Of a stretch of 37,838 nucleotides of DNA, positions 4,927-25,882 are shown in pieces; the stretch's first letter is position 1; every line of letters starts with the position of its first letter. The translations under genes were made by a program, and so were the position numbers. The stretch lies in the IMG/VR virus record IMGVR_UViG_3300032309_002729, positions 1-37,838 of that record, one strand, 5' to 3'. Below the pieces are notes generated by a model, which saw only the letters and a program-made list of their open reading frames with translations, had not been told where the DNA came from and did no database searches. The stretch comes from a virus.

Positions 4927-5030
4927 TACTTCCACCGATCCTGTTTTAGAACCGTTAGATTAAGTACAATACCAACTAACACAACACCGGCTATCATTCC
5001 TGCGCCGAAAATAAGTAATGATGTAAACAT
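4926..5030 (-). CDS. Small single-pass membrane protein, 34 aa
   Basis: MFTSLLIFGAGMIAGVVLVG is followed by IVLNLTVLKQDRWK, one hydrophobic segment over most of the protein and a short basic tail. GGGAGTAAAA precedes the ATG, and the stop overlaps the regulator's GTG. Short length makes the call uncertain, but the ribosome site and the overlaps on the operon pattern support it. Confidence 0.55.
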   Translation of the reverse strand: MFTSLLIFGAGMIAGVVLVGIVLNLTVLKQDRWK

Positions 5031-10447: not shown

Positions 10448-10476
10448 TTGAAAATGTCATAGATGTATGCAATACT
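10448..10476 (+). promoter_or_regulatory. Promoter of the 80-aa gene, probably leaderless
   Basis: TTGAAA (10448-10453), a 17-base spacer beginning ATGTCATAGATG, and AATACT (10471-10476). The ATG at 10486 is nine bases beyond the -10 box and has no ribosome site. Confidence 0.5.
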
Positions 10477-11214: not shown

Positions 11215-11243
11215 TTGACAATGTCAGATCCATACTGTAATGT
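11215..11243 (+). promoter_or_regulatory. Promoter with palindromic -35 operator
   Basis: TTGACA (11215-11220), 17 bases, TAATGT (11238-11243). The perfect palindrome TGACAATGTCA occupies 11216-11226, overlapping the -35 box. Confidence 0.6.
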
Positions 11244-11281
11244 CGTAACTATAACTGAATAAAGCACAACGACACCCCGAT

Positions 11282-11311
11282 TTGACGAATGTCATAGAGC
11301 GATGTTAGAGT
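11282..11311 (+). promoter_or_regulatory. Second, tandem promoter with the same operator type
   Basis: TTGACG (11282-11287), then TAGAGT at 11306-11311 after 18 bases. TGACGAATGTCA (11283-11294) carries the TGAC-n-TGTCA arms, followed by TAGAG as in several other promoters here. Confidence 0.5.
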
Positions 11312-11367
11312 GTTCATACTTCGTTAGATGGTCTATCGAAGCACAAGATGAAGGGAGCTACTCACCC

Positions 11368-11706
11368 GTGAGTACTTCAACCATTAGCACGACAAAGGTA
11401 ACAACCGCCGTTGAGATCGAAAGCACCACGATCGAACTTCCTGCAGATGCAGAGAAAGCAATCGTTGAACTCAACACCATTCGCGCAACACTAAAGGCTC
11501 TTGAAGAGAGCGAGAAGAAAGTTAAGGCAACTCTGATGGGTTACCTTGATGGCGCGGAAGAGGGAACGATTAAAGGTATCGTTCGCTTAACTGCAAAAGC
11601 GCAAACACGCGCAGGTATAGATGCCAAGAAGTTGAAGGAAGTATTTCCTGAAGCTGCTGAAGCGTGTGCCACAGAAACTTCTTACATAGTTGTAAAGACT
11701 AAGTAA
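11368..11706 (+). CDS. Phage protein resembling the C-terminal segment of YqaJ-type recombinase proteins, 112 aa
   Basis: The coiled-coil-like AIVELNTIRATLKALEESEK followed by KVKATLMGYLDGAEEG, and the ending RAGIDAKKLKEVFPEAAEAC, follow the pattern seen after YqaJ/lambda-exonuclease-type domains and as free-standing small phage proteins (E-L...LK...E...G...R.G+D.K.LKE.FPE.Y). No nuclease motif is present. I start at the GTG at 11368 (GAAGGGAG upstream); an ATG at 11302 lies at the predicted transcript start and lacks a site. Association with recombination is a weak inference. Confidence 0.5.
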   Translation: MSTSTISTTKVTTAVEIESTTIELPADAEKAIVELNTIRATLKALEESEKKVKATLMGYLDGAEEGTIKGIVRLTAKAQTRAGIDAKKLKEVFPEAAEACATETSYIVVKTK

Positions 11707-11719
11707 GTAGATCGTCAGG

Positions 11720-11755
11720 TCGGGGTAGGTCTCCTTAGAAAAACTCCTACCCCGA
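11720..11755 (+). terminator. Rho-independent terminator abutting the next promoter
   Basis: TCGGGGTAGG (11720-11729) pairs perfectly with CCTACCCCGA (11746-11755). The TTT that ends it is the beginning of the next -35 box. Confidence 0.75.
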
Positions 11756-11756
11756 T

Positions 11757-11785
11757 TTGACACCATCATAGATTTAATGTACCTT
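11757..11785 (+). promoter_or_regulatory. Promoter of the 162-aa/AAA unit
   Basis: TTGACA, spacer CCATCATAGATTTAATG (17 bases), TACCTT. The spacer is one base different from that of the promoter at 13450 (CCATTATAGATTTAATG), so the AAA and VWA units are probably co-regulated. Confidence 0.7.
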
Positions 11786-11835
11786 TAGAACGTAAGACAA
11801 AATGACACCTACAACAAGCAAGGGAGCAACACCAA

Positions 11836-12324
11836 GTGACTACACCAGTCGAATATGTAACTGACACCACCAAGTCAGTACAAGGCTTTGCGATGTACGC
11901 AGAGTTTGTAAACACAACAGCAGGACCAAAGAATGGAAATATTTTCCAGATGTTCTTCACACCAGATGGTGTGTCTGAACTAGGTCAATTCGTTGGCGCA
12001 CACGTTTACGCGCGTGAGCTTTCAAAAGATAAGCCAAAGCGACAATGGCGTACTGCGCCGTTGCTGCCGGCTTTGATCAACGCAGATGGTCAGAACACAC
12101 CTGAACATAGATTTGATCGCGTTAACTCTGGCAACAGCATACGCTCAACGCTAAGAAATTTAACGCACTTTGCACAGATGGTTGGCGAACCATTTTTCGT
12201 AGAAGTATCAAAGAGTGATCTTGATGCAATCGCTAGTGGCAAGCCACTAACAAAAGTTATCTATCGAATTGGTGAGACTCGTAAAGCAAAAGGCTTTGCA
12301 GAGATCTTTCCAGAGTCAAAGTAA
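11836..12324 (+). CDS. Hypothetical protein upstream of the MoxR-type ATPase, 162 aa
   Basis: The protein starts at GTG (AGGGAG upstream) and is a mixed alpha/beta sequence with FAMYAEFVNTTAGPKNGNIF near the front and GETRKAKGFAEIFPESK at the end. I do not recognise a family. It is followed 12 bases later by the AAA ATPase under one promoter, so it may be a partner or substrate adaptor of that module. Confidence 0.6.
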   Translation: MTTPVEYVTDTTKSVQGFAMYAEFVNTTAGPKNGNIFQMFFTPDGVSELGQFVGAHVYARELSKDKPKRQWRTAPLLPALINADGQNTPEHRFDRVNSGNSIRSTLRNLTHFAQMVGEPFFVEVSKSDLDAIASGKPLTKVIYRIGETRKAKGFAEIFPESK

Positions 12325-12336
12325 GGGAGTAAAACT

Positions 12337-13377
12337 ATGACTACAATTATTGAAAAGTACGAAATTCTAGGTGAAGCATTTGCTAAGTCCTTAGATGAAT
12401 TCTTGTCGCAACCTGTCGATGCAGATGCCTCGATGCGTATCAACGCACAGGTGTTGCCACAAGGTCGCTACAAGGAACGCGCACCTCGCACCACGAAGCC
12501 AAAGGCAATCATAGTGTCAGACGAAAGTATTTCTGCAGTAGCAGTAGTTTCTGACGAAGAAATTTATGGTCGTCCAAATGGTGACAAGTACCACGCTCGC
12601 AAGTGGGGCGATCACCAAGATGTTGCAACTTTGCGTAAAGCTCGTGAAGCAACTACTAACGCATTCTCAACAAGTGTTGGTGCGCCGATGTTTACACTTC
12701 TCTATGGCGCACCTGGCTGTGGCAAGACTGCATTAGTCGAAGCAGCCTTTGGTGAAAATATGTACACGCTACTTGGAACTGGCGACACAGAAGTTGCAGA
12801 CCTACTTGGTGGCTATGTTCAAACTCCATCAGGTGGCTTTGAATGGGTCGATGGCGATCTTGTAAAAGCTGCCGAAGAGGGTGCAGTTTATTTCATCGAC
12901 GAAGTTGGTCTGATTGATCCAAAGGTACTTTCGATTATTTATGGACTAATGGACGGTCGCAGAGAAATTGGTATCACAGCAAACCCAGAACGCGGAACTG
13001 TAAAAGCAGATCCAAACTTTTATGTAGTTGCTGCCACTAATCCAAACGCGCCGGGCGTTCGACTTTCGGAAGCCTTACTATCTCGCTTTACTGTTCAAGC
13101 AGAGATGGCAACTGATTGGTCACTTGCTCGTACTCTTGGTGTTCCAACATCAATGGTTACTGTCGCGCAAAACTTATCGAAGAAGCAAGCATCAGGTGAA
13201 GTTTCTTGGGCTCCACAGATGCGCGAACTACTTGCTTTCAGAGATATCTCAACTGTGTTCGGGCAATCGTTCGCAGTATCAAACTTGTTAGCAGCCTCGC
13301 CAGAAATTGATCGCCCAGTTGTGGCAGATGTTTTATCTCGCGTATTCGGGGCTGACTGCAAACCAGCAAAGATCTGA
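12337..13377 (+). CDS. MoxR/CobS-type AAA+ ATPase
   Basis: A 346-residue AAA+ protein with Walker A GAPGCGKT (124-131), Walker B VYFIDEV (184-190), a sensor-1 asparagine in VVAATNPNAPG (N235) and a nearby SRF arginine-finger-like residue (R250). The GxVDGDLVKAAEEGAVYFIDE context is typical of MoxR/CobS ATPases, which work with VWA-domain partners to remodel proteins or insert metals. The first 90 residues are family-specific and unrecognised. AAGGGAG precedes the ATG. The VWA partner is the next gene, from its own near-identical promoter. Confidence 0.9.
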   Translation: MTTIIEKYEILGEAFAKSLDEFLSQPVDADASMRINAQVLPQGRYKERAPRTTKPKAIIVSDESISAVAVVSDEEIYGRPNGDKYHARKWGDHQDVATLRKAREATTNAFSTSVGAPMFTLLYGAPGCGKTALVEAAFGENMYTLLGTGDTEVADLLGGYVQTPSGGFEWVDGDLVKAAEEGAVYFIDEVGLIDPKVLSIIYGLMDGRREIGITANPERGTVKADPNFYVVAATNPNAPGVRLSEALLSRFTVQAEMATDWSLARTLGVPTSMVTVAQNLSKKQASGEVSWAPQMRELLAFRDISTVFGQSFAVSNLLAASPEIDRPVVADVLSRVFGADCKPAKI

Positions 13378-13401
13378 TAACTCCCTTCTCGGATCTTTGC
13401 A

Positions 13402-13446
13402 GGGTGGGGGGTCGCACGTGGTGTCGCGACTCCCTACCCACCCCCT
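13402..13446 (+). terminator. GC-rich terminator between ATPase and VWA genes
   Basis: GGGTGGG (13402-13408) pairs with CCCACCC (13437-13443), and GGGTCGC pairs with GCGACTCCC with one bulge. The T-run is short. Confidence 0.55.
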
Positions 13447-13449
13447 AAG

Positions 13450-13478
13450 TTGACACCATTATAGATTTAATGTACTAT
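13450..13478 (+). promoter_or_regulatory. Promoter of the VWA-protein gene
   Basis: TTGACA (13450-13455), 17-base spacer, TACTAT (13473-13478); the spacer is near identical to that of the promoter at 11757. Confidence 0.75.
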
Positions 13479-13513
13479 CGTAAATGACACACTACGAAAG
13501 AGAGAAGGACACA

Positions 13514-15283
13514 ATGGCACACATTGACACAGACACCACCACAGGTGGAAAGACATACCCAGAGTGGTACGTCGTTGGATCACAAATTGGAACTTTTGTA
13601 AACAAGGTGGCCGGCCGAAACGATTTAGTTGGGCTTGCAAGTCCAGAGTCAGGTAGTGGAGCTCCTGCTTGCTACAAACCAAGAATTGCAGAAGTTGAAG
13701 TAAACACTATTGCTGCTTTTGGCGAATATGTTTTGCCGGAAATGATTGGCGACATAAACGAAAGCGAAACTCAATACGAATTTCCTAAAGCAACTGGCGC
13801 GGTTATCCACGAAGCTTTTCACGCTAAGTACTCACGATGGGATTTAGCACAGGCTCAACTTGCTTTGAAAGAAGATGAGTACAAAGCACTAGCACTTTTA
13901 GAAGAGTCGCGCATTGAAAAGTTTGGAATCGAAGCAGACGAAAGTCATTTAGTTTTCTTACGCGCTTGCGTAATGGAAATTGTTCTTGGCGATGTTACAT
14001 CAGCAGGTAACGAAGATAACTCGATCGAACAGTTGGCGCAGATCGTTGGCTTAGTACACGCTCGCGTTCTCGGCGGTGTGTTAGAGATTGACGAAGTATC
14101 AGAAGTGATCTCTGCAGTAAATGCAAATCTTGGCGAAGATGTTGTTTTGAAGTTGTCTGCAATTATTCGCAAGTTTCTAATGCACAACGAACACGACAAC
14201 CTAGAGCCTGTTTATCCTCTTGCGATTGAGTGGGCAAAGATTGTTCGCGAACTTAAAGAAGAGCGCGGTGAAGATACAGCAACACAGCAACAAGCAATTA
14301 AAAATATTATGAAAGCACTTGCCGAAGCTGGCGAAGAAATTGAAATCAAAAACTACGGCAGACTTGCAGATCAAGAAATGCAAGAAGAGTGGGACGAAGA
14401 AGTTAGTCGCCGGTCAAGTGAGTCAAAAGAAAAAAAGGAACACGAAGAAGAAGCATCAGAATGTTTTGGTAAAGGCACAGGACCTCAACCAGAAACAGAC
14501 ACAATGAGTCGCAGAATAGAAACTCGCAAGCCAACTACGCAAGAGCGGTCAGCAGCGGTGACGATTGCACAGATGCTTGAAAAGGCAAAGTACCGTGAGC
14601 GCGATGAAATTGAAATCTCTAGCGTTCTGCCTCCAGGTCGCTTGCGTACTCGCGCGTTAGTGCAAGGCTCGGCTATGCGGTCGCGCGGTATGACTGCACC
14701 GACAGAAGCGTGGCGCAGGACAATACGAAAGCACACCGACGACCCAACACTTTCGGTTGGCGTGATGGTAGACATTTCAGGCTCGATGGGCGATGCGATG
14801 CAACCGATGGCGACAACAGCGTGGGTAATGTCAGAAGCCACAAAGCGCGTGCAAGGAAGATGCGCGATGGTCTACTACGGCAACGACGTTTTCCCAACTC
14901 TCAAAGCCGGTCAGCATTTAACTGACGTTGATGTTTATTCCGCTATGGACGGCACAGAACAGTTTGATAAAGCTTTTAAAGTCTTAGACGGTTCGTTAAA
15001 TCTTTTGCACGGCACAGGCGCACGGCTACTGGTTGTAGTTTCTGATGGTTGCTACACAGGCAAGGAACTCAAAGCGGCTCGCCGATGGATTGATCGGTGT
15101 GAACAGGCTGGAGTCGCGGTATTATGGTTACCATTCGATGGAAGACATAACGGCTACCACGCCAAGAATCTTCTAGACGGTACTTCGATCAAGCCACTAA
15201 CGGGAGTTAGTGATCCAGTCGAAGCCTCCAAAACAATCGGACAGGCTTGCGCCAAAGCTTTGACGGCGGTCGGCAAGCGATAA
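13514..15283 (+). CDS. CobT-like VWA protein with an N-terminal HExxH metallopeptidase-like motif
   Basis: A 589-residue protein started at the second ATG, which has GAGAAGGA upstream. Residues 95-140 hold VIHEAFHAKYSRWD (HEAFH = HExxH, 99-103) followed by LLEESRIEKFG (130-138), the arrangement of the CobT/DUF2201-type metallopeptidase-like domain, with a glutamate positioned as a third ligand. The middle (about 300-340) is charged and low complexity (EKKEHEEEAS). The C-terminal VWA domain has the MIDAS motif DISGSMG (420-426) and a VVVSDGCYTGKE strand. It is the expected partner of the MoxR-type ATPase at 12337. Proteolytic activity is not proven by the motif. Confidence 0.85.
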   Translation: MAHIDTDTTTGGKTYPEWYVVGSQIGTFVNKVAGRNDLVGLASPESGSGAPACYKPRIAEVEVNTIAAFGEYVLPEMIGDINESETQYEFPKATGAVIHEAFHAKYSRWDLAQAQLALKEDEYKALALLEESRIEKFGIEADESHLVFLRACVMEIVLGDVTSAGNEDNSIEQLAQIVGLVHARVLGGVLEIDEVSEVISAVNANLGEDVVLKLSAIIRKFLMHNEHDNLEPVYPLAIEWAKIVRELKEERGEDTATQQQAIKNIMKALAEAGEEIEIKNYGRLADQEMQEEWDEEVSRRSSESKEKKEHEEEASECFGKGTGPQPETDTMSRRIETRKPTTQERSAAVTIAQMLEKAKYRERDEIEISSVLPPGRLRTRALVQGSAMRSRGMTAPTEAWRRTIRKHTDDPTLSVGVMVDISGSMGDAMQPMATTAWVMSEATKRVQGRCAMVYYGNDVFPTLKAGQHLTDVDVYSAMDGTEQFDKAFKVLDGSLNLLHGTGARLLVVVSDGCYTGKELKAARRWIDRCEQAGVAVLWLPFDGRHNGYHAKNLLDGTSIKPLTGVSDPVEASKTIGQACAKALTAVGKR

Positions 15284-15295
15284 CTGAATAAACCT

Positions 15296-15388
15296 CTGTC
15301 GGGGAGTATCGTCCTTCCAGCGTGTGTCAGCTGTCCGACAGTTTAAAGCGAAAGCCCACACTCTTACTTCCGGTGTGGGTTTTCGTTC
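15296..15388 (+). terminator. Hairpin followed by Rho-independent terminator
   Basis: A long-loop hairpin CTGTCGG/CCGACAG (15296-15341) is followed by the terminator GCCCACAC/GTGTGGGT (15354-15380) ending in TTTCGTT. Confidence 0.75.
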
Positions 15389-15391
15389 GTC

Positions 15392-15421
15392 TTGACAAAT
15401 GTCAGGTCAGCGGCGTACAAT
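15392..15421 (+). promoter_or_regulatory. Promoter with palindromic -35 operator
   Basis: TTGACA (15392-15397), 18 bases, TACAAT (15416-15421). TGACA-aa-TGTCA spans 15393-15404. Confidence 0.75.
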
Positions 15422-15451
15422 ACAGGTATGAACAAAACAAGGGAGAAAAAA

Positions 15452-15718
15452 ATGTTCAAACAATACAGCTACTACTTAGTGGATCACGGCGACGTAGTGG
15501 ATCACTTTTCACTTGATGAATACATTCACAAGTACAAAGACTTCCTGATCGACAATCCGTGGGCGTGGGAAGCAGAATCGCAACTCACAAACTGGGAACT
15601 CAACGCCGACAAAGAACGGCTAGAACTTACCTACACGGTTGATCGCAACGGCGAGATTGAAACTCACGTTGATTACGTGGACTACCAAAAGGTGACGACT
15701 TATGTAACAGCGGTATAA
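15452..15718 (+). CDS. Hypothetical acidic protein, 88 aa
   Basis: AAGGGAG six bases upstream selects the ATG at 15452. The protein (MFKQYSYYLVDHGDVVDHFS and on) is rich in aromatic and acidic residues and alternates strands and helices. I recognise no family. It is a single-gene transcription unit between its own promoter and terminator. Confidence 0.6.
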   Translation: MFKQYSYYLVDHGDVVDHFSLDEYIHKYKDFLIDNPWAWEAESQLTNWELNADKERLELTYTVDRNGEIETHVDYVDYQKVTTYVTAV

Positions 15719-15798
15719 CAAAAAAACTCTGAAGCAGTGGGGAGTATAAACATAGGGCAGCCGGTCATAAAGCTACGGTCGGAAAATTAAATTAGCTG

Positions 15799-15836
15799 AA
15801 GCACCCGGAGTGGAAAATCACTTCGGGTTTTGCTTT
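15799..15836 (+). terminator. Rho-independent terminator
   Basis: AAGCAcCCGgAGTG pairs with CACTtCGGgtttTGCTT in a mismatched stem, ending in TTT. The spacer beyond holds GGAAAAAAATTTT and a GGCCGGCC word. Confidence 0.6.
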
Positions 15837-15929
15837 GCCGGAGTTGGAAAAAAATTTTAAGCTGTCCATAAGCTGGTCAGCCGCCAGAAAAAATAATTAT
15901 CTTTTGTGGCCGGCCAGGTGTGGTTCAGT

Positions 15930-15958
15930 TTGACTTTGTCATAGAGGTAATGTATCAT
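15930..15958 (+). promoter_or_regulatory. Promoter of the four-gene unit 15990-17074
   Basis: TTGACT, 17-base spacer (TTGTCATAGAGGTAATG), TATCAT. TGAC-ttt-GTCA (15931-15941) is the palindrome over the -35 box. Confidence 0.7.
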
Positions 15959-15989
15959 TTACTTAATGGCATACAGAAGGGAAAACAAA

Positions 15990-16250
15990 ATGTCACAGAG
16001 AACAATCTCAACGCACGATACACGCGCGGTAGCTCGCTACAACTTAGCGCAAGAAATACTAAAGTCAGACAACGGTCAAGGCATTCTAGAAGCACTTGCT
16101 GAACTTACAGAAGAGTATGTTTCTATGTCTAAGACACGGTTAGAGCAAGGCGACGAGGCAAGCGCACTACGTTGGGCGCGAGTTGGCGAGGAACTAACAA
16201 CAGTTGTTATGTGTACCTCACTAAACCTATTAGAGAGTAAGGGGTTCTAA
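15990..16250 (+). CDS. Hypothetical helical protein, 86 aa
   Basis: AGAAGGGA upstream selects the ATG at 15990. The protein (MSQRTISTHDTRAVARYNLA and on) is almost entirely helical with ALAELTEEYVSMSKTRLEQG and GDEASALRWARVGEELTTV, resembling a short helical bundle. No family recognised. The stop overlaps the next start (TAATG). Confidence 0.6.
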   Translation: MSQRTISTHDTRAVARYNLAQEILKSDNGQGILEALAELTEEYVSMSKTRLEQGDEASALRWARVGEELTTVVMCTSLNLLESKGF

Positions 16251-16462
16251 TGCAACATCACTTTATAGTTTATTTCAACACGCTCACGAACGAGTGGGTG
16301 GTGGAGTCGAATATGGACTCTTTCCTAAACGACGGAACTGTCTGGGACGACAGCATCAGCGAATGGGTACACGCGATTGACGACGGCGACACCTACGCAA
16401 AAGACGAAGAACTCTACGACACGCTAAACGCGGTGTTGAACAAATTGAATGAAGGGAAGTAA
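16250..16462 (+). CDS. Hypothetical acidic protein, 70 aa
   Basis: It begins MQHHFIVYFNTLTNEWVVES, two beta strands with aromatic residues, followed by an Asp-rich region (VHAIDDGDTYAKDEELYDTL). Coupled to the preceding gene by TAATG. No family recognised. Confidence 0.55.
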   Translation: MQHHFIVYFNTLTNEWVVESNMDSFLNDGTVWDDSISEWVHAIDDGDTYAKDEELYDTLNAVLNKLNEGK

Positions 16463-16466
16463 GGCT

Positions 16467-16679
16467 ATGGAAAAAATTAACGTGATGAAAGTTGTGACCT
16501 ACGACTTTCAGAAAATCTCGGACGATATGTTTGAGGCGACCGGGCTTCGCCCAATTAACGCCACCGAAGCGGTTGATTGGATTGAGGACTGGGTTATAGA
16601 AGATTTTGGTTGTGGTTACGGACACCAGCCGAACTTGCGCGACCTAATCTTCCAAGACGAGAACGGCGAGGAGTTGTAA
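16467..16679 (+). CDS. Hypothetical acidic protein, 70 aa
   Basis: The ATG at 16467 (MEKINVMKVVTYDFQKISDD) is preceded by a ribosome site at the end of the previous gene; a start at 16449 would overlap it. The sequence is mixed alpha/beta with FGCGYGHQPNLRDLIFQDE near the end. Its stop overlaps the next start (TAATG). Confidence 0.55.
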   Translation: MEKINVMKVVTYDFQKISDDMFEATGLRPINATEAVDWIEDWVIEDFGCGYGHQPNLRDLIFQDENGEEL

Positions 16680-17074
16680 TGGCGACGCTGCTGATTGATT
16701 GGGAAAAAAATAACGAACCGGTTCAGGGAGCTCGCGATCCAATGTTTTACCGAATGTACGGTCACGACTTGGTAGGCACGGTGATTCTTGATGGAGAGCC
16801 GTATGCCCAAATCTTTTGTGACGGTGAGATGCGGTTAGCTAGCCCCAACGAAGAAATCATAATTCGGGATTGTTGGGACTTGGCTGCTTCCGGTTTTCTT
16901 TCTGATGAGCAACTCCGGGAAGCTTTGGAAAAAAATAACTGGCATCTTTACTTTAACCCGTGGTTTGATTTCTATTCAATGGACGGCGAACATCTGGATT
17001 TAATTTGTGACGACATTGACCACGCAATAGCCACGGCTGTCGGTTTTGCTGATGATCTTGACACCGAGGAATAA
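16679..17074 (+). CDS. Hypothetical acidic protein, 131 aa
   Basis: It starts at the ATG overlapping the previous stop; a longer ORF from 16610 overlaps that gene heavily and is rejected. The protein (MATLLIDWEKNNEPVQGARD and on) is strongly acidic, with YGHDLVGTVILDGEPYAQIF and a Trp/Phe-rich WHLYFNPWFDFY segment. Two GAAAAAAAT words inside it encode EKNN and EKNNW. The promoter of the next unit is embedded in its last codons. Unknown function. Confidence 0.6.
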   Translation: MATLLIDWEKNNEPVQGARDPMFYRMYGHDLVGTVILDGEPYAQIFCDGEMRLASPNEEIIIRDCWDLAASGFLSDEQLREALEKNNWHLYFNPWFDFYSMDGEHLDLICDDIDHAIATAVGFADDLDTEE

Positions 17075-17086
17075 TAGAACTATAAT
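17058..17086 (+). promoter_or_regulatory. Consensus promoter overlapping the previous gene's end
   Basis: TTGACA (17058-17063), 17 bases, TATAAT (17081-17086). This is one of the best matches to consensus in the window; the predicted start is near 17093. Confidence 0.8.
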
Positions 17087-17093
17087 CAAGGTA

Positions 17094-17110
17094 TGAAGCA
17101 GGGAGCTTCA
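17094..17110 (+). promoter_or_regulatory. 5'-terminal mRNA hairpin, loop AGGGA
   Basis: TGAAGC-AGGGA-GCTTCA forms a perfect 6-bp stem beginning one or two bases after the predicted transcription start. It is one of a family of such leader hairpins. Confidence 0.65.
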
Positions 17111-17126
17111 GAAAGAAGGGAACAAA

Positions 17127-17537
17127 ATGGCAAACTACTACGGACAAACCCGCACCAATTACTTTTTAGTAAAAGACGCGGAAGCTTTCAAAACTGAAAT
17201 GGCGAACTACGAAGTTACGGTCATTGAGCAAAAAATTGGCGAGGAAACTGGCTACGGAATCTTGGACGCGGATAGTGATGGCGGCGGTCTTCAATGGAGT
17301 CAATTCAATGAAGAAACCGACGAGTATGACGATCTTGCGTGGGAAGTCATTATTGGAAACCACCTCAAAGACGGAGAGGTGTGTGTCCTAATGGAAACTG
17401 GCGCGGAGAAGTATCGCTACCTAAGCGGTTGGGCTATCGCGTTTAACAATAAGGGCGAAACTCGCAGAGTAGACATCACAGACATCTACAACCTAGCCAA
17501 AGAGTTAGGCACGGGTATAACCCAAGCAGAGTATTAG
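17127..17537 (+). CDS. Conserved hypothetical protein, 136 aa
   Basis: The opening MANYYGQTRTNYFLVKDAEA and the Gly-rich GYGILDADSDGGGLQWS resemble a small family found on actinobacterial plasmids and phages, though I cannot name it. An acidic middle (NEETDEYDDLAWEVIIGNHL) is followed by a strand-rich C-terminus. AAGGGAAC precedes the ATG. It forms a single-gene unit. Function unknown. Confidence 0.6.
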   Translation: MANYYGQTRTNYFLVKDAEAFKTEMANYEVTVIEQKIGEETGYGILDADSDGGGLQWSQFNEETDEYDDLAWEVIIGNHLKDGEVCVLMETGAEKYRYLSGWAIAFNNKGETRRVDITDIYNLAKELGTGITQAEY

Positions 17538-17545
17538 ACACGGTG

Positions 17546-17578
17546 AGAGGGGTGAGTTTGACAACTTGCCCCTCTTTC
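17546..17578 (+). terminator. Terminator whose loop contains the next -35 box
   Basis: AGAGGGG (17546-17552) pairs with CCCCTCT (17569-17575), with an inner AGTT/AACT stem; TTTCG follows. The tetraloop TGAC lies within TTGACA at 17558-17563. Confidence 0.7.
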
Positions 17579-17587
17579 GTTTATACT
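17558..17587 (+). promoter_or_regulatory. Promoter of the DUF2958 gene, nested in the terminator
   Basis: TTGACA (17558-17563), 18 bases, TATACT (17582-17587). The spacer is the 3' arm of the preceding terminator. Confidence 0.65.
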
Positions 17588-17624
17588 TTCATCATAACGG
17601 AAAGCGCACAGAAGGGAAAAGAAA

Positions 17625-17927
17625 ATGCGCGGACATAAATTATTAACGAAGGAACTGGCGGCAAAGTTGCCAGAGCTTTATTCGCAAGATGGCAAGGGCG
17701 AGGAAGCGGTTGCGGTTGTAAAGTTCTTCAGCCCCTATACCGGTTGGAGATGGTACGCCACAGAGTTTGACGGCGTAGACACTTTCTTCGGTTTGGTTGA
17801 AGGGTTTGAAACAGAACTTGGATACTTTAGCCTACAAGAACTAGAAAGCGTTACGGTCTTTGGCGGAGTACCCGCTATCGAACGCGACCTACATTGGACA
17901 CCACGCACGTTAGGAGAACTGCGGTGA
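17625..17927 (+). CDS. DUF2958 family protein
   Basis: A 100-residue protein that fits DUF2958 over its whole length: [57 protein letters not shown] and a C-terminal [13 protein letters not shown]. This family occurs mainly on plasmids and other mobile elements and has no known function. GAAGGGAA precedes the ATG. The gene is coupled to the following one by a four-base GTGA overlap. Confidence 0.9.
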
Positions 17928-18202
17928 ACGTAACCACGATTGAAGAATGGGACGAGTTCTACAAGCCAGAAAAAAATTGGCTAGATGAGGAAGCGAGCTG
18001 GGGTGGGGTACTTTACGAAACCTACGGTGAAGAAGTCAAGTATGTTTTTTCACAGCCTAAGAACCACATCTGGACTTATGTAGACGGAGATAGCGGAACT
18101 TACCTTACAACTGGGTTTAAGGTTTGTAACCGGATTGGTCACATAGTCACGGACGTACCGTGGACAGAAGAAATGGAAATACGGGTTTCTGAAGATGCTT
18201 GA
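17924..18202 (+). CDS. Hypothetical acidic protein, 92 aa
   Basis: It starts at a GTG overlapping the DUF2958 stop (GTGA), with AGGAGAA upstream. The sequence [20 protein letters not shown] and [20 protein letters not shown] is rich in Trp, Tyr and acidic residues. No family recognised. Its tight coupling suggests it works with the DUF2958 protein. Confidence 0.6.
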
Positions 18203-18228
18203 CAAATGTCAGGCGTATGACTTATAAT
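18199..18228 (+). promoter_or_regulatory. Promoter with palindromic -35 operator
   Basis: TTGACA (18199-18204), 18 bases, TATAAT (18223-18228). TGACA-aa-TGTCA spans 18200-18211. A GAGC-GTAAA-GCTC hairpin (18236-18248) starts at the predicted transcript end. Confidence 0.75.
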
Positions 18229-18268
18229 CATCATAGAGCGTAAAGCTCAACTAACAAGGGAGAACCAA

Positions 18269-18397
18269 ATGTGTAATCACGAAATGATAGATTGCCCAGA
18301 ACATGAGGGCGGTTACGACTGCACACCGTTTTGCAAGGTGTGTGAGGGTGAACAGGGCTACTGCCCTATCTGCGAACCAATAGAGGGAGAAAACTAA
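18269..18397 (+). CDS. Cys-rich microprotein, 42 aa
   Basis: MCNHEMIDCPEHEGGYDCTP is followed by FCKVCEGEQGYCPICEPIEG. Eight cysteines and two histidines in 42 residues, including CKVC and CPIC, make it a likely zinc-binding module. AAGGGAGAA precedes the ATG. The next gene begins one base after its stop. Confidence 0.7.
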   Translation: MCNHEMIDCPEHEGGYDCTPFCKVCEGEQGYCPICEPIEGEN

Positions 18398-18398
18398 A

Positions 18399-18872
18399 AT
18401 GGGACTAGATCAGTACCTATACGCAAGCGAATACCTATCCGACGGATCTTGGCTGCCAGAGGAAAAAAGAAATGCTTACGGAAAAATCCGGGAAGCACTT
18501 GGCGCGGAGAGCTTTGAAAACAAAGAGTATCCGTCAATTACGGTCAAGGTTAAAGTTGGCTACTGGCGCAAGGCGAACCAAATCCATAACTGGTTTGTAG
18601 ACAATGTGCAAAACGGCGAAGACAACTGCGCGGAGTATTCTGTAACTAGCGAACAGTTAGAGGAATTGTTAAGTATCTGCAAAATAATAATTGCAAGCAA
18701 AGATAAAGATACAGCGGAGAGTTTGCTACCACCGTCAGCAGGTTTCTTTTTCGGGTCGTATGAAATTGACGATTGGTACTGGGAACAGATTGACGACACC
18801 ATTGAGCAACTTGAGCGCGTACTAGCCAATGTTCCAGAGGGCTGGGGTTTCTCTTACCAAAGCTCGTGGTAA
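18399..18872 (+). CDS. Conserved phage protein of the MGLDxYLY type, 157 aa
   Basis: MGLDQYLYASEYLS, YWRKANQIHNWFVDNVQNGE and LLPPSAGFFFGSYEIDDWYW match a widespread phage protein family (MGLDMYL...WRKAN.IH.WFV...GFFFG) found in phages of many hosts. The conserved His/Trp/Asn core suggests a real, perhaps enzymatic, role, but none is established to my knowledge. GGGAGAA lies upstream. It is the second gene of a two-gene unit. Confidence 0.75.
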   Translation: MGLDQYLYASEYLSDGSWLPEEKRNAYGKIREALGAESFENKEYPSITVKVKVGYWRKANQIHNWFVDNVQNGEDNCAEYSVTSEQLEELLSICKIIIASKDKDTAESLLPPSAGFFFGSYEIDDWYWEQIDDTIEQLERVLANVPEGWGFSYQSSW

Positions 18873-18896
18873 GTGGCGTTGAGGGACGCATAGAAG

Positions 18897-18926
18897 AAGG
18901 GCGGGGAAACCCGCCTTTCTTTATTT
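18897..18926 (+). terminator. Rho-independent terminator, first of a near-duplicate pair
   Basis: The GGCGGG/CCCGCC core with flanking A-T pairs is followed by TTTCTTTATTT. The sequence before and through the stem (GAGGGACGCA...GGGCGGGGAAAC) is nearly repeated at 19384-19424. Confidence 0.8.
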
Positions 18927-18968
18927 CTGGGCAGCGGTAGAATGGAAAAAAATTTCTAGGAGTTTGCG

Positions 18969-19121
18969 TTGAAAAAGAAAAAGCCGCTTGATGGTTTGAT
19001 CCAAGCTCGCGGTAATTATGTCTTGAACCAAAAATCTTTTAAGTTTTTAGACAGACGAACCCGGCGGAACAGGGATAGATCAAGTCATAAAAGACACGCC
19101 ATAAATGAGTCTTCGGAATAA
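18969..19121 (+). CDS. Small basic protein, 50 aa, TTG start
   Basis: A TAGGAG seven bases before a TTG codon opens a frame reading KKKKPLDGLIQARGNYVLNQ, then FKFLDRRTRRNRDRSSHKRH. The arginine-rich DRRTRRxRxR pattern is reminiscent of small basic actinophage proteins. The rare start and short length leave doubt, but the ribosome site and strong composition bias favour a gene. No promoter of its own is evident. Confidence 0.45.
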   Translation: MKKKKPLDGLIQARGNYVLNQKSFKFLDRRTRRNRDRSSHKRHAINESSE

Positions 19122-19122
19122 C

Positions 19123-19150
19123 TTGACAAAAGAAATAAAATCATTATAGA
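19123..19150 (+). promoter_or_regulatory. Promoter of the 68-aa gene
   Basis: TTGACA, 16 A-rich bases, TATAGA. A TTCC-ATAA-GGAA hairpin (19155-19166) starts at the predicted transcript end and includes part of the ribosome site. Confidence 0.65.
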
Positions 19151-19177
19151 ATCATTCCATAAGGAAGGGAGTATTCA

Positions 19178-19384
19178 ATGTATGAATACAGAATGACAGT
19201 AATCTTCACGACAAGCCGTGAACTTACTGAACAAGAAATCTCGGATCTAGAAGTACCGGTCTGGGCGCAAATCGAAGAGCCACAGGTAGATACTGATGAT
19301 CGCGGTTGGGTGGATGCGGACTACGAAACTAGTTCCATCAGGGTCAATACTGAAATGACTTTCTGCCCAGCACCAACAGCGTAG
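19178..19384 (+). CDS. Hypothetical acidic protein, 68 aa
   Basis: MYEYRMTVIFTTSRELTEQE begins with a beta strand; the centre (DTDDRGWVDADYETSSIRVN) is acidic. GAAGGGAG precedes the ATG. It is a single-gene unit with its own promoter and terminator. No family recognised. Confidence 0.55.
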   Translation: MYEYRMTVIFTTSRELTEQEISDLEVPVWAQIEEPQVDTDDRGWVDADYETSSIRVNTEMTFCPAPTA

Positions 19385-19396
19385 GGACGCACGGAG

Positions 19397-19424
19397 AAGG
19401 GGCGGGGAAACTCGCCCCTTTTCT
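19397..19424 (+). terminator. Rho-independent terminator, second of the near-duplicate pair
   Basis: AAGGGGCG (19397-19404) pairs with CGCCCCTT (19413-19420); TTCTAATTT follows and the last TT begins the next -35 box. Confidence 0.8.
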
Positions 19425-19427
19425 AAT

Positions 19428-19456
19428 TTGACAAGTATCATAGAGTCATCTAAACT
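19428..19456 (+). promoter_or_regulatory. Promoter of the 19485-20365 unit
   Basis: TTGACA, spacer AGTATCATAGAGTCATC (17 bases), TAAACT. The spacer carries the ATCATAGAG word shared with other promoters of this group. Confidence 0.7.
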
Positions 19457-19484
19457 TAGAGAACAACGAAGGGAGTGAATCCAA

Positions 19485-19697
19485 ATGGGATACACAAAAA
19501 TTGAAATACCAGCAGACACTTACTGCGAAAGTTGCGATGAAGCTGAAGCAACTACCTACCACGATCACGATGGTTGGATACCACCAACTTTCTACTGCCA
19601 AGACTGCCAAGACAGAATCGAAGCCTCATACGAAGGTCCTTCGGCTATGGATGTTTACGAACCGGTAGTTATGAACGAACACGGTAGGGTTTTCTAA
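19485..19697 (+). CDS. Zinc-ribbon-like protein, 70 aa
   Basis: CESC (residues 14-17) and CQDC (38-41) are separated by YHDHDGWIPPTFY, a plausible single zinc ribbon with conserved His/Asp between the knuckles. The acidic C-terminus is unrecognised. AAGGGAG precedes the ATG, and the stop overlaps the next start (TAATG). Confidence 0.65.
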   Translation: MGYTKIEIPADTYCESCDEAEATTYHDHDGWIPPTFYCQDCQDRIEASYEGPSAMDVYEPVVMNEHGRVF

Positions 19698-19831
19698 TGA
19701 GGGACTCACTAGATAAAGTCACCGACTTTTTTATGGAAGGCGCGGGGTCAATTATTTTAGTTGCCCTTATTCTTGGAGCTCCAATAGCATTCATACTTTT
19801 TCTTAACATCTACTGGATTATGAACGGATAG
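19697..19831 (+). CDS. Small single-pass membrane protein, 44 aa
   Basis: A short polar N-terminus (MRDSLDKVTDFFMEGAG) precedes a strong hydrophobic span (SIILVALILGAPIAFILFLN). Its ATG overlaps the stop of the zinc-ribbon gene, and the next gene begins two bases after its stop. Function unknown. Confidence 0.6.
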   Translation: MRDSLDKVTDFFMEGAGSIILVALILGAPIAFILFLNIYWIMNG

Positions 19832-19833
19832 TT

Positions 19834-20127
19834 ATGATTAACGCGGATGAGTTACAGCCCGGCGTCTGGGTTGAGTTGGAAAAAAATAATTCAGTTGCTT
19901 TCGGAGTCGCGGTTGTTGAGCTAGCGATGAAGTATGGTTACGACATTCTTCCAGATGTCTGGGCGGAAGATAAGCCCGTCTTTTTATCCGGCGCGGCGAC
20001 AAATGAGATGCTTGAAGACTTAAGTGTTGTCGCGGACTTTGGTATCCAGTATCTAGCTGATCAACTGCCTGAAGGCTATGAGTTTAGTTTTACAGATGAG
20101 GGGTTGGTTTTAGATGAAAGACATTGA
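19834..20127 (+). CDS. Hypothetical acidic protein, 97 aa
   Basis: MINADELQPGVWVELEKNNS opens the protein; the middle contains VVELAMKYGYDILPDVWAED, and the C-terminal part YLADQLPEGYEFSFTDEGLV ends acidic. A GAAAAAAAT word encodes the EKNN. No family recognised. It overlaps the next gene by 14 bases. Confidence 0.55.
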   Translation: MINADELQPGVWVELEKNNSVAFGVAVVELAMKYGYDILPDVWAEDKPVFLSGAATNEMLEDLSVVADFGIQYLADQLPEGYEFSFTDEGLVLDERH

Positions 20128-20365
20128 GTTTAGATTAACCACCACCGACAATAACAACTGGGCGTTAGAAGTTTATGATCCTAACGTGCAACACTTAGTT
20201 GGCGCGGCAAGTAAAAAGTTTTCCGGACTCGGAGAAGCTGAAGTTTGGCTAGAGTCGTTTGGTACTTTAGAAAAGTCTAGGTTTATAGATCGTGAAGACT
20301 TTAAGGTGATACGCGGTACAGCCCAAATGGGGAGTTTCTCTTTAGAAAGTTTACTGTCAGATTAA
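20114..20365 (+). CDS. Hypothetical protein, 83 aa
   Basis: MKDIEFRLTTTDNNNWALEV is strand-rich, followed by GLGEAEVWLESFGTLEKSRF. The start lies inside the preceding gene and is preceded by its codons for GLVLDE; no strong ribosome site, so coupling is likely. No family recognised. Confidence 0.5.
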   Translation: MKDIEFRLTTTDNNNWALEVYDPNVQHLVGAASKKFSGLGEAEVWLESFGTLEKSRFIDREDFKVIRGTAQMGSFSLESLLSD

Positions 20366-20366
20366 C

Positions 20367-20395
20367 TTGACATCCTTAAATAGTAGTGTTACCAT
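20367..20395 (+). promoter_or_regulatory. Promoter, AGTGT-type
   Basis: TTGACA (20367-20372), 17 bases ending TAGTAGTGT, TACCAT (20390-20395). First of the promoters that share AGTGT just before the -10 box. Confidence 0.65.
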
Positions 20396-20428
20396 TACTA
20401 CATAGGGAGAGAAAAGGGAGGTGACAAG

Positions 20429-20596
20429 ATGGAAACAAAAGACTACGGACACGGAATTACCACTCAAATTACTGAGGATGGAATGCTTGCTATCGTCTGG
20501 AACAACGGCAAGACTAAGAAGTTCAGAGGCGAAACTGCTTGGATGGATGCGGAACGCTACGCTCAAGATCTAGTTTTCAAAGTTATCTACGCATAA
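20429..20596 (+). CDS. Hypothetical protein, 55 aa
   Basis: METKDYGHGITTQITEDGML and AIVWNNGKTKKFRGETAWMD suggest a compact strand-rich fold with a C-terminal helix. GGGAGGTG lies seven bases before the ATG, a very strong ribosome site. A single-gene unit. No family recognised. Confidence 0.6.
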   Translation: METKDYGHGITTQITEDGMLAIVWNNGKTKKFRGETAWMDAERYAQDLVFKVIYA

Positions 20597-20607
20597 CTTG
20601 AAAAGAC

Positions 20608-20640
20608 AAGCCCCCCGTTTACGCGGGGGGTTTTTGTTTT
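20608..20640 (+). terminator. Strong Rho-independent terminator
   Basis: CCCCCCG (20611-20617) pairs with CGGGGGG (20624-20630), followed by TTTTTGTTTT. The spacer beyond (20641-20800) has no gene; it holds GAAAAAAAT words on both strands and repeated GCGCGG/AGCTGG/CCGG words. Confidence 0.85.
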
Positions 20641-20808
20641 GCCGGAACGCGGGCAGCGCGGAAAAAAATAATAAGCTGGATGGGTCCGTCTTCAGGAATT
20701 TTTCCAGCTCAAAATTTTTTTCCACCTGAGCCGCGCAGCGCCGGGAAGCTTGCTGCACGCTTTCCGGAAAAATTAAATTAAATTTTCTGAGCTAGTTTAG
20801 GTTTAGAC

Positions 20809-20837
20809 TTGACATACAAAAAGTAGTGTGCAATAAT
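20809..20837 (+). promoter_or_regulatory. Promoter of a short non-coding unit
   Basis: TTGACA (20809-20814), 17 bases ending TAGTGTGC, AATAAT (20832-20837). TAGTGTGCAATAATCATT recurs exactly in the promoter 108 bases downstream. Confidence 0.65.
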
Positions 20838-20843
20838 CATTAA

Positions 20844-20907
20844 AGCGGATTAGTCACCGTGTGAATCGCAAAGCCCCCGTGTTTACCCTCCACGGGGGTT
20901 TTGTTTT
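20844..20907 (+). ncRNA. Predicted small RNA of about 64 bases
   Basis: The promoter at 20809-20837 and the terminator CCCCCGTG/CACGGGGG (20874-20898, then TTTTGTTTT) enclose no ATG, GTG or TTG ORF of note. The 5' part GCGGATT...GAATCGC can form an additional bulged hairpin. A stand-alone promoter-terminator pair in a region where every other pair encloses a gene suggests a small RNA, or a unit that has lost its gene. Confidence 0.5.
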
Positions 20908-20916
20908 GTCATAAAC

Positions 20917-20945
20917 TTGACACGCGGAAAATAGTGTGCAATAAT
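20917..20945 (+). promoter_or_regulatory. Promoter, AGTGTG-type
   Basis: TTGACA (20917-20922), 17 bases ending TAGTGTGC, AATAAT (20940-20945). Confidence 0.65.
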
Positions 20946-20953
20946 CATTCATG

Positions 20954-20976
20954 TAAGTAAGAAGGGCTTACTTACA
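20954..20976 (+). promoter_or_regulatory. 5'-terminal mRNA hairpin, loop AAGGG
   Basis: GTAAGTAAG-AAGGG-CTTACTTAC is a perfect 9-bp stem starting at the predicted transcript 5' end, upstream of the real ribosome site AGAAGGGAA. Confidence 0.7.
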
Positions 20977-20992
20977 GAAGGGAAATAACACC

Positions 20993-21328
20993 GTGGGTAA
21001 TCGCTCATTTATTGTTATTGAAAGTAAGAACTATGTATCGCCTATCGCTCTTTATGGGCATTGGTCAGGTACAGACAATGTTCGCGCCGTAGAAAATGTA
21101 TTAGCCCGAACAGATAGAGTAGGCGACCCGTCATACCTGACAGCGCAACTCTTTCACGAATTCTCCACACTAGGTGGTTATGATGGAAACTTATCTTTCG
21201 GCATTGATGCCTATGGCTACGATGCAGGTAGTTGGGAAGATAACGACCCAATTTACATTGATGCGGATACAGGTAAAACATCTGGCGAACCATTTCGTAT
21301 TTGCAAGGTTGCCAATTCCTACGCATAA
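20993..21328 (+). CDS. Conserved hypothetical protein, 111 aa
   Basis: GTG start with AGAAGGGAAA upstream. MGNRSFIVIESKNYVSPIAL, YGHWSGTDNVRAVENVLART and RVGDPSYLTAQLFHEFSTLG are highly patterned and resemble an actinophage/prophage family I have seen without an assigned function. The C-terminal DNDPIYIDADTGK is a typical strand-turn. Single-gene unit with a leader hairpin. Confidence 0.65.
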   Translation: MGNRSFIVIESKNYVSPIALYGHWSGTDNVRAVENVLARTDRVGDPSYLTAQLFHEFSTLGGYDGNLSFGIDAYGYDAGSWEDNDPIYIDADTGKTSGEPFRICKVANSYA

Positions 21329-21340
21329 CTAATTAAAGAT

Positions 21341-21374
21341 AAAGCCCCTGCAACACGCAGGGGTTTTATTTTGC
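21341..21374 (+). terminator. Rho-independent terminator
   Basis: CCCCTGC (21345-21351) pairs with GCAGGGG (21357-21363), followed by TTTTATTTT. Confidence 0.85.
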
Positions 21375-21382
21375 CCTAAGAC

Positions 21383-21411
21383 TTGACATACTTTAGTTAG
21401 TGTGGGACAAT
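21383..21411 (+). promoter_or_regulatory. Promoter, AGTGTG-type
   Basis: TTGACA (21383-21388), 17 bases ending TTAGTGTGG, GACAAT (21406-21411). AGTGTGGGACAATTTA recurs in the promoter at 22762. Confidence 0.65.
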
Positions 21412-21440
21412 TTAGGTATCACATAGGGAGAGGTGAGAAA

Positions 21441-21542
21441 ATGAACACAGCAACTAAATGCGTAGAATGCAACAGAGTGTTTGACTTAATGAACACAGAC
21501 GATGCAAGCGAATGGTACTACGGTCACGATTGCGAAGCCTAG
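21441..21542 (+). CDS. Cys-containing microprotein, 33 aa
   Basis: MNTATKCVECNRVFDLMNTD then DASEWYYGHDCEA. CVEC and HDC could bind one zinc ion. GGGAGAGGTGAG precedes the ATG; own promoter and terminator support expression. Confidence 0.6.
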   Translation: MNTATKCVECNRVFDLMNTDDASEWYYGHDCEA

Positions 21543-21555
21543 TCTTCAACAAGAT

Positions 21556-21584
21556 GCCCCCGCCTAGCGCGGGGGTTTTCTTTT
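21556..21584 (+). terminator. Rho-independent terminator
   Basis: CCCCCGC (21557-21563) pairs with GCGGGGG (21569-21575), followed by TTTTCTTTT. The 130-base spacer after it holds a GAAAAAAAT word and no gene. Confidence 0.85.
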
Positions 21585-21715
21585 GCGTGGGAACAGCTCG
21601 TGAAGACAGCTCGCCAGCTTGCGGAAAAAAATTCTGTGCTGCTTTTCCAGGCCGAAATTTTCCAGATCCGCGGCTGGTCTTCCGGAAAATTTAATTGCTA
21701 AAAGTTCCCGATGAC

Positions 21716-21744
21716 TTGACATGAGGCAAGTTATGTGGTTAAAT
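21716..21744 (+). promoter_or_regulatory. Promoter of the 95-aa gene
   Basis: TTGACA (21716-21721), 17 bases ending TATGTGG, TTAAAT (21739-21744). Confidence 0.65.
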
Positions 21745-21749
21745 AGTTT

Positions 21750-21767
21750 TATCGCTAAGGGGCGATA
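21750..21767 (+). promoter_or_regulatory. 5'-terminal mRNA hairpin, loop TAAGGG
   Basis: TATCGC-TAAGGG-GCGATA, 6 bp, at the predicted transcript start. The same loop TAAGGG recurs at 22799-22814 and 28138-28153 with different stems. Confidence 0.7.
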
Positions 21768-21786
21768 ATCACAAAGGAGAAATACC

Positions 21787-22074
21787 GTGAACGAGTATCT
21801 AAAAGAATACTTGGCAGATCCAAGTGAGGATTGGTTTTTAATCAACTCTCGCGATGAAGAAGAGATCGATTTGCGCGAAGATGTCAAGGCTGAGTACAGC
21901 GAGCCTTGGGGTATGTGGCTAGTTAGTTACGTCGATGAAGATGGCGACGATGGTTCGGTTCTACTGCGCGACGCTAAGTCCGCGGAAGAGGCGCTACTAA
22001 TTGGCGCGAGCCTAGTTAAGGAACACGGATTCATCCCAGATGAAATGTTCTACCCAGCCGGGGAGGAGATGTAA
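21787..22074 (+). CDS. Hypothetical highly acidic protein, 95 aa
   Basis: GTG start with AAAGGAG upstream. MNEYLKEYLADPSEDWFLIN is followed by many Asp and Glu residues (SRDEEEIDLREDVKAEYSEP, YVDEDGDDGSVLLRDAKSAE). Strong negative charge suggests a possible DNA-mimic or a protein-binding role, but this is speculation. The next gene starts immediately after its stop. Confidence 0.55.
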   Translation: MNEYLKEYLADPSEDWFLINSRDEEEIDLREDVKAEYSEPWGMWLVSYVDEDGDDGSVLLRDAKSAEEALLIGASLVKEHGFIPDEMFYPAGEEM

Positions 22075-22215
22075 ATGCTAAAGTTCCAAGAATCTCACCA
22101 ATGCCCGTTGTGCGGCGAATTAGTTAAAGAGGGTTACAACACTCCGGCTAATCAGGGAATAGTTTTAGAAGACTGGTCTTGCAAAAGTTGCCACGAAGAG
22201 TTGGTAAAACTATAA
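22075..22215 (+). CDS. Zinc-ribbon microprotein, 46 aa
   Basis: MLKFQESHQCPLCGELVKEG and DWSCKSCHEELVKL contain CPLC and CKSC separated by about 30 residues, a simple zinc ribbon. GGAGGAG at the end of the preceding gene serves as ribosome site. Function unknown. Confidence 0.7.
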   Translation: MLKFQESHQCPLCGELVKEGYNTPANQGIVLEDWSCKSCHEELVKL

Positions 22216-22225
22216 ATCTTTAAGA

Positions 22226-22261
22226 GAAAGCCCCCGCAGAAATGTGGGGGTTTTCTTTTTG
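22226..22261 (+). terminator. Strong Rho-independent terminator
   Basis: GAAAGCCCCCGCA pairs with TGTGGGGGTTTTC through a GAAA loop, followed by TTTTT. The spacer to 22400 carries GAAAAAAAT at 22325 and GCTGCTGCAGC-like words. Confidence 0.85.
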
Positions 22262-22400
22262 CGCGGGAGGTCCTCCGGGAAAGCAGCGCGGGAAAAGATA
22301 ATTTGCTGCTGCAGCCTCAGATTGGAAAAAAATTTTAGCCGCTTTGCCGCTGAAGGTAAGCTGCCTGGAAGCTAGGAAGCTGAAATTATGTTTTCCCTTC

Positions 22401-22416
22401 ATAACGAATTCGTTAT
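22401..22416. promoter_or_regulatory. Perfect 16-bp palindrome, candidate operator
   Basis: ATAACGAATTCGTTAT lies 22 bases upstream of the -35 box of the next promoter. It is not followed by a T-run. Confidence 0.5.
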
Positions 22417-22437
22417 AAAACTTTTTGCGGAATGAAC

Positions 22438-22466
22438 TTGACAATGTCAGGGGTGTAGTTTATTAT
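22438..22466 (+). promoter_or_regulatory. Promoter with palindromic -35 operator
   Basis: TTGACA (22438-22443), 17 bases, TATTAT (22461-22466). TGACAATGTCA occupies 22439-22449, identical to the one at 11216. Confidence 0.75.
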
Positions 22467-25853: not shown

Positions 25854-25882
25854 ATGTTAGCACAATAACCTGACATAGGCAA
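25854..25882 (-). promoter_or_regulatory. Leftward promoter of the zinc-ribbon gene
   Basis: On the - strand TTGCCT, 17 bases (starting ATGTCAGG and ending TTGTGC), TAACAT. Confidence 0.5.

Follow-up and report, generated by a model that had tools for sequence, protein, structure and literature searches.

A putative phage version of the actinobacterial RecA-NDp (PafBC-type) promoter upstream of small viral genes

The IMG/VR virus record IMGVR_UViG_3300032309_002729 was analysed whole (37,838 nt; hereafter the window). Several of its small genes are preceded by promoters whose -35 box overlaps a sequence of the form TGACA-n-TGTCA. Is this palindrome an operator? A sequence-only reading of the window had proposed that a dimeric repressor covers the -35 box and turns these genes off together. 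The sites quoted in that reading are all present where it had placed them, and they are real and non-random. However, they are not dimeric operators. I propose, with a probability of about 0.7, that the small-gene array carries RecA-NDp (PafBC-type) promoters of the host kind in a phage version, in which the -26 element forms the second arm and the -35 box of sigma-A the first. The arms look palindromic only because TTGACA, the -35 consensus, nearly equals the PafBC box TGTCAG when that is reverse-complemented.

The plus strand of the window has eight copies of TTGA-N3/4-TGTCA, while 200 first-order shuffles averaged 0.4 copies and never exceeded 3. Loose palindromes with up to two mismatches barely exceed chance (26 versus 18.6 expected, and 25 versus 17.4). 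Seven of the eight copies lie in promoters and one lies within the gene at 23554. In all seven promoters, the -10 hexamer starts exactly 10 nt after the second arm; it is TAnnnT in six of them and AATACT in the promoter at 10448. The 11-bp palindrome (arm gap of 3) always occurs with a 17-nt spacer and the 12-bp palindrome (arm gap of 4) with an 18-nt spacer. These promoters, and four further sites, are as follows ("hybrid" denotes the -35 box combined with the second box).

10448..10476 (+): promoter with -35 TTGAAA (10448-10453), -26-type box TGTCAT (10455-10460), and -10 AATACT (10471-10476)
11215..11243 (+): hybrid promoter with -35 TTGACA, box TGTCAG (11222-11227), -10 TAATGT (11238-11243), spacer 17
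11282..11311 (+): hybrid promoter with -35 TTGACG, box TGTCAT (11290-11295), -10 TAGAGT (11306-11311), spacer 18
11757..11785 (+): sigma-A promoter with a degenerate box CATCAT in register
13450..13478 (+): sigma-A promoter with a degenerate box CATTAT in register
15392..15421 (+): hybrid promoter with -35 TTGACA, box TGTCAG (15400-15405), -10 TACAAT (15416-15421), spacer 18
15930..15958 (+): hybrid promoter with -35 TTGACT, box TGTCAT (15937-15942), -10 TATCAT (15953-15958), spacer 17
18199..18228 (+): hybrid promoter of the 18269 and 18399 genes with -35 TTGACA, box TGTCAG (18207-18212), -10 TATAAT (18223-18228), spacer 18
19428..19456 (+): sigma-A promoter with a degenerate second arm TATCAT one base out of register
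22438..22466 (+): hybrid promoter with -35 TTGACA, box TGTCAG (22445-22450), -10 TATTAT (22461-22466), spacer 17
25854..25875 (-): non-palindromic RecA-NDp-like site TGTCAG-N10-TAACAT, without the TTGAC arm

Thus, the box is TGTCAG at 11222, 15400, 18207, 22445, and 25875(-), and TGTCAT, that is, TGTCA without the G, at 10455, 11290, and 15937. The minus-strand site had been overlooked in the sequence-only reading; it precedes a minus-strand open reading frame (ORF; 25579-25809) and is clearly similar to minus-strand promoters of the related loci L070, L072, and L073. Among the weaker versions that were said to keep part of the second arm, the one at 10448 does so, while those at 11757 and 13450 are degenerate and the one at 19428 is out of register.

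Is the box tied to the other arm or to the -10 box? I gathered 149 related loci, chiefly via the AAA ATPase and the 18399 protein. Promoter 11215 has near-identical counterparts in L007 and L025, and promoter 18199 has similar ones in L011, L012, L014, L017, and L024. Promoters similar to 11282 (in L008, L017, and L024) have an arm gap of 3 or 4 but keep the distance from the box to the -10 box. Likewise, window promoter 22438 has a gap of 3, and its clearly similar counterpart at 16592 of L012 has a gap of 4 with an 18-nt spacer; N10 separates the box from the -10 box in both. Since similar promoters vary in the arm gap and all keep N10, the position of the box is fixed to the -10 box and not to the other arm. 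Over the 149 loci, TAnnnT follows at N10 for 232 of 996 unique TGTCAG sequences, while other distances gave 3 to 58 each and the best of all TGTCAG anagrams at N10 gave 23. In logos that were not conditioned on the -10 box, TA...T also appears at N10, with arm gaps of 3 and of 4 alike. Downstream of TTGACA, TGTCA is the commonest pentamer at offset 2 and the second commonest at offset 1. The second arm is therefore conserved in related phages, as the sequence-only reading would require.

The left arm behaves otherwise. TTGA was found at a gap of 3 or 4 upstream of 79 of 230 TGTCAG-N10-TAnnnT sites; the other 151 have no left arm (for example, TTGCAAATGTCAG or AAAAATGTCAG), and an extended -10 (TGn) is frequent among them. 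Even in the gap-3 class, the C of TGACA is kept in the left arm in just 38%. A dimeric repressor might be suspected from the seven window promoters with both arms and from a small HTH_3 protein encoded there (HTH, helix-turn-helix). A palindromic operator would have both arms at a constant half-site spacing. Here, the gap is 3 or 4, linked to spacer length and shifting between clearly similar promoters, and the left arm is absent from two-thirds of the phage sites (about 150 in the relatives, and 25875(-) in the window) as well as from every host site described below. It is thus very improbable that a symmetric repressor reads these sequences.

Boxes of the relatives are TGTCAG and, in some cases, TGTCGG. 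In the larger records (50 surveyed), the sites lie in one cluster on a single strand and the controls are near zero; a relative, G009, has 18 sites in about 15 kb. A common flavour in the group L109-L147 is TGTCAGACCCC. When the whole of IMG/VR was searched for TGTCAGACCCC-N5-TAnnnT, many stretches with two to seven copies were found among the matches listed, while the reversed control gave 110 stretches, with a single copy in all those listed. For TTGACAAATGTCAG in IMG/VR, TAnnnT lies at N10 in 50 of 117 unique cases.

Which known promoter has this architecture? PafBC is the main DNA-damage activator in mycobacteria, and its trigger, single-stranded DNA (ssDNA), was established only recently. 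According to PMC11804915, the HTH of PafB binds the -26 motif, PafC contacts domain 4 of sigma-A, and ssDNA activates the complex. The actinobacterial RecA-NDp DNA-damage promoter has the consensus tTGTCRgtg-8nt-TAnnnT (PMC5656591) and was located upstream of recA in Streptomyces coelicolor (PMC5087735). The phage box and its spacing are identical to this consensus. At the trailing tg, which is weak in the consensus, the window TGTCAG sites continue with AT, GT, GC, GG, and GT, and the relatives have a mix of TG, AC, GG, and TC. A match to the box of a known activator leads one to expect activation and not the joint switch-off that had been proposed. What survives of that proposal is that the small-gene promoters share a regulatory element, namely the same box at a fixed distance from the -10 box.

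Do actinobacterial hosts have such promoters? One paper states that the PafBC motif of Mycobacterium smegmatis was not found to be conserved in S. venezuelae in a first search (PMC9380542). I searched 118 genomes of the class of Actinotalea caeni. Several genomes of 8-10 Mb have 40-80 matches versus 1-7 controls, and in three of the large genomes the stricter TTGTCRGTG-N8-TAnnnT gave 95 matches versus 0 in the control, with matches upstream of recA, ruvA, xseA, and an extracytoplasmic function (ECF) sigma gene. These counts favour the presence of the PafBC motif in large actinobacterial genomes. In small actinobacterial genomes (1.3-2.6 Mb), TGTC[AG]G-N10-TAnnnT lies upstream of full recA in 11 of 11, and a tandem pair of WYL (PafBC-like) genes was found in 10 of the 11, the exception being G134. 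In several of the recA upstream regions of small genomes, a LexA-type box, CGAAC-N4-GTTCG, adjoins the -10 box. In L380, L381, L383, L384, and L386, the LexA-type box TCGAACAGATGTTCGG stands directly 3′ of the RecA-NDp -10 box, which suggests joint control of recA by PafBC and LexA in these small genomes. In contrast to the hosts, the 31 phage records examined contain no WYL domain. A phage-encoded PafBC was thus rejected, and PafBC would come from the host; a borrowed host PafBC is the most likely reader of the phage boxes.

The host and phage promoters differ in one respect. A poor or absent -35 box is part of the definition of RecA-NDp. It is seen at 25875(-) and at about 150 sites of the relatives, but all plus-strand sites of the window have a TTGA-type -35 box and were therefore classed as a hybrid variant. 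Of 43 host sites, 30 come from large genomes and 13 stand at recA, or at a recA-like gene, in smaller genomes; not one has TTGA at a gap of 3 or 4, versus the 79 phage sites above. Judging from these sequences, the -35/-26 hybrid form looks phage-specific, and hybrid promoters may have two modes, a basal one by sigma-A and one boosted by PafBC.

Might these simply be sigma-A promoters, with TGTCA as a habit of spacer composition or a trace of a copied promoter? More than 12 plain promoters of the type TTGACA-N17-TAnnnT without the second arm also exist in the window, and many array promoters have good -35 and -10 boxes without TGTC. Nevertheless, six specific bases are conserved at one distance over very divergent phages while the adjoining spacer bases vary, so there is next to no chance that no regulator is involved. 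A second promoter flavour was found at 20809, 20917, 21383, 21716, and 22762 of the window, where TTGACA-N17 is accompanied by a GTGTGC/G stretch just 5′ of the -10 box and the TGTC box is absent.

How would the phage promoters work if PafBC reads them? Where TGTC(A)G stands exactly 10 nt upstream of TAnnnT, the sigma-A holoenzyme of the host would start transcription together with PafBC, likewise of the host. PafBC may be switched on by ssDNA arising from phage replication or from host-DNA breakdown, so that array expression would rise with infection-generated ssDNA. A phage homologue of ClgR, which some of these phages carry, may act as a co-activator or modulator. The sequence-only reading had named two window proteins as candidate binders.

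4666..4935 (-): ClgR homologue of 89 aa, a candidate reader or co-reader (PDB and NCBIfam matches)
23554..24138 (+): sigma-70 region-4-like HTH protein, an unlikely reader

The 23554 protein is undetectable in the two relatives richest in sites (G009 and G014) and was dropped. The description of the 4666 protein as ClgR-like was correct. Its two best PDB matches, 5woq (E 9e-19) and 3f51, are both ClgR, and its best family is the NCBIfam ClgR equivalog model (E 8e-28), at 96.8 bits, below the cut-off of 170. Thus, it is a ClgR homologue but is not called an equivalog. Among named phages, its only matches are two records of gut phages that carry no annotation.

Is ClgR, as an activator or a repressor, the main reader instead of host PafBC? 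The LGYLSE(V/L)ERG helix is conserved. The classical ClgR operator is CGC-N5-GCG, which is unlike TGTCAG. ClgR is reported in PMC5656591 to recognise the RecA-independent P1 (RecA-NDp) promoter in M. smegmatis, although later work assigned the motif to PafBC. The 48 ClgR-bearing viral records (2.62 Mb) have 184 TGTCRG-N10-TAnnnT sites versus 10 for the control, or 70 per Mb; 50 other viral records, which were picked for holding the control pattern and whose control counts were not used, have 15 per Mb and are about five times sparser. For the records of the first set that are no shorter than 60 kb, at least three sites are present in six of seven with ClgR versus five of 18 without it (Fisher p 0.02, ignoring shared ancestry). 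Phylogeny confounds this association. Many sites also occur in the L109-L147 group, where ClgR is not detectable, so ClgR cannot be required everywhere. A ClgR homologue is therefore an unlikely main reader, though 4666 stays a candidate because its family is reported at the P1 promoter.

Is the box conserved wherever the array is? The gene order of the window is class II ribonucleotide reductase, small genes, AAA ATPase, 'CobT'-like protein, small genes, HslV-like protease, and portal. It resembles that of Actinomycetia phage DSL-LC01 (OQ999401, 129 kb, Dishui Lake), the nearest named relative by AAA ATPase, so the window is probably about one third of a similar freshwater actinophage. By megablast, no named phage matches the window, nor does any encode a protein that matches the 18399 product. 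In DSL-LC01 (L270), about 30 array promoters at 24000-42000 share GATTCTAAAG-ATGT-TATAAT-AGAATC (TTCTAAAG-N4-TAnnnT), often with an inverted repeat around the -10 box and without a -35 box. Related lineages (L006, L028, L031, L034, L045, L051, L078, L082, L083, L113, and L116) each seem to use a repeated box of their own, whose distance from TAnnnT is constant. Examples are TCTGAG-N5 (24 copies), CGTAAA-N19 (22), TCCAGA-N5 (19), CTAGGG-N4 (15), TTGTCG-N18 plus GGGTGG-N7, and TGTAAG-N17 plus CGTAGG-N6. It seems that one array has a lineage-specific promoter code.

These sister lineages, as if each had its own reader, raise another possibility, namely that the box is recognised by a phage-encoded activator of some other kind, in the manner of MotA at T4 middle promoters. 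The fixed box, the dispensable -35, and the frequent extended -10 would also agree with this. On the other hand, box and spacing exactly match a promoter class of the actinobacterial hosts, and no candidate DNA-binding family was found to track all site-rich phages. A search for proteins that the site-rich phages share found members of the WhiB family as well as several unknowns, none specific to the TGTCAG phages. MotA and AsiA were not seen among the annotated genes here. Such an activator is quite improbable. WhiB-family proteins occur at two per genome (L298:10250-10747(-), L298:11453-11752(-), L270:38673-38912(+), and L292:673-1227(+)).

Several points weigh against host PafBC as the reader. 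Consensus -35 boxes are absent from the host PafBC promoters but present at the plus-strand window sites, which could therefore fire without PafBC, and three window boxes are TGTCAT instead of TGTCAG. PafBC is presumed in the host of the window. The corresponding DSL-LC01 array has no TGTCAG-type sites; PafBC control is therefore not essential for this type of array. The absence of detectable ClgR from the TGTCAG-rich L109-L147 phages counts here as well.

A standard -35 box beside the recognition box of the promoter by which actinobacteria turn on DNA-repair genes suggests that, in a large family of freshwater actinophages, the small-gene array is wired to the DNA-damage activator of the host. 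A broader picture, to which I give somewhat less than even odds, is that lytic actinophages run an infection-stage regulon via the ssDNA-sensing activator of the host. RecA-NDp promoters would have been copied before about 5-25 accessory genes, many sharpened by a consensus -35 into two-mode promoters, with phage ClgR as a second reader and sister lineages rewired to private boxes. If host PafBC does read the boxes, phages of freshwater actinobacteria would time themselves by the damage alarm of the host, a testable regulatory label would attach to many unknown small genes, the presence of a phage-borne ClgR homologue would be explained, and a natural set of promoters with and without -35 would be available for dissecting sigma adaptation. 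Full-text literature searches found no report of phage use of PafBC promoters. Nothing relevant came from the literature on MotA-like promoters in actinophages or on Nanopelagicales phage promoters.

How do these promoters compare with known systems? Like RecA-NDp at recA P1, where PafBC acts by sigma adaptation, they have TGTCRG at about -28 to -23, N10 to TAnnnT, and a dispensable -35, and the flavours TGTCAGTGG and TGTCAGACC are found in hosts and phages alike. Unlike RecA-NDp, they form arrays on phage genomes before small genes of unknown function; TTGA(C) is added in one third of the phage sites, and three window sites have TGTCAT. The 4666 protein shares the HTH core and the LGYLSELERG helix with the ClgR of mycobacteria and corynebacteria (5woq and 3f51), but is shorter, phage-borne, and under the NCBIfam cut-off. 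T4 middle promoters (MotA box, AsiA) likewise have a fixed box in place of -35, an extended -10, and many copies per phage genome. However, the T4 MotA box lies at about -30, and here the box differs in sequence and position (-28 to -23) and its likely reader is a host protein. Stoperators of the mycobacteriophage L5 type are repeated asymmetric repressor sites with a TTGACA-like hexamer. The present sites are also repeated and include such a hexamer, but their conserved part is tied to the -10 box and matches an activator box.

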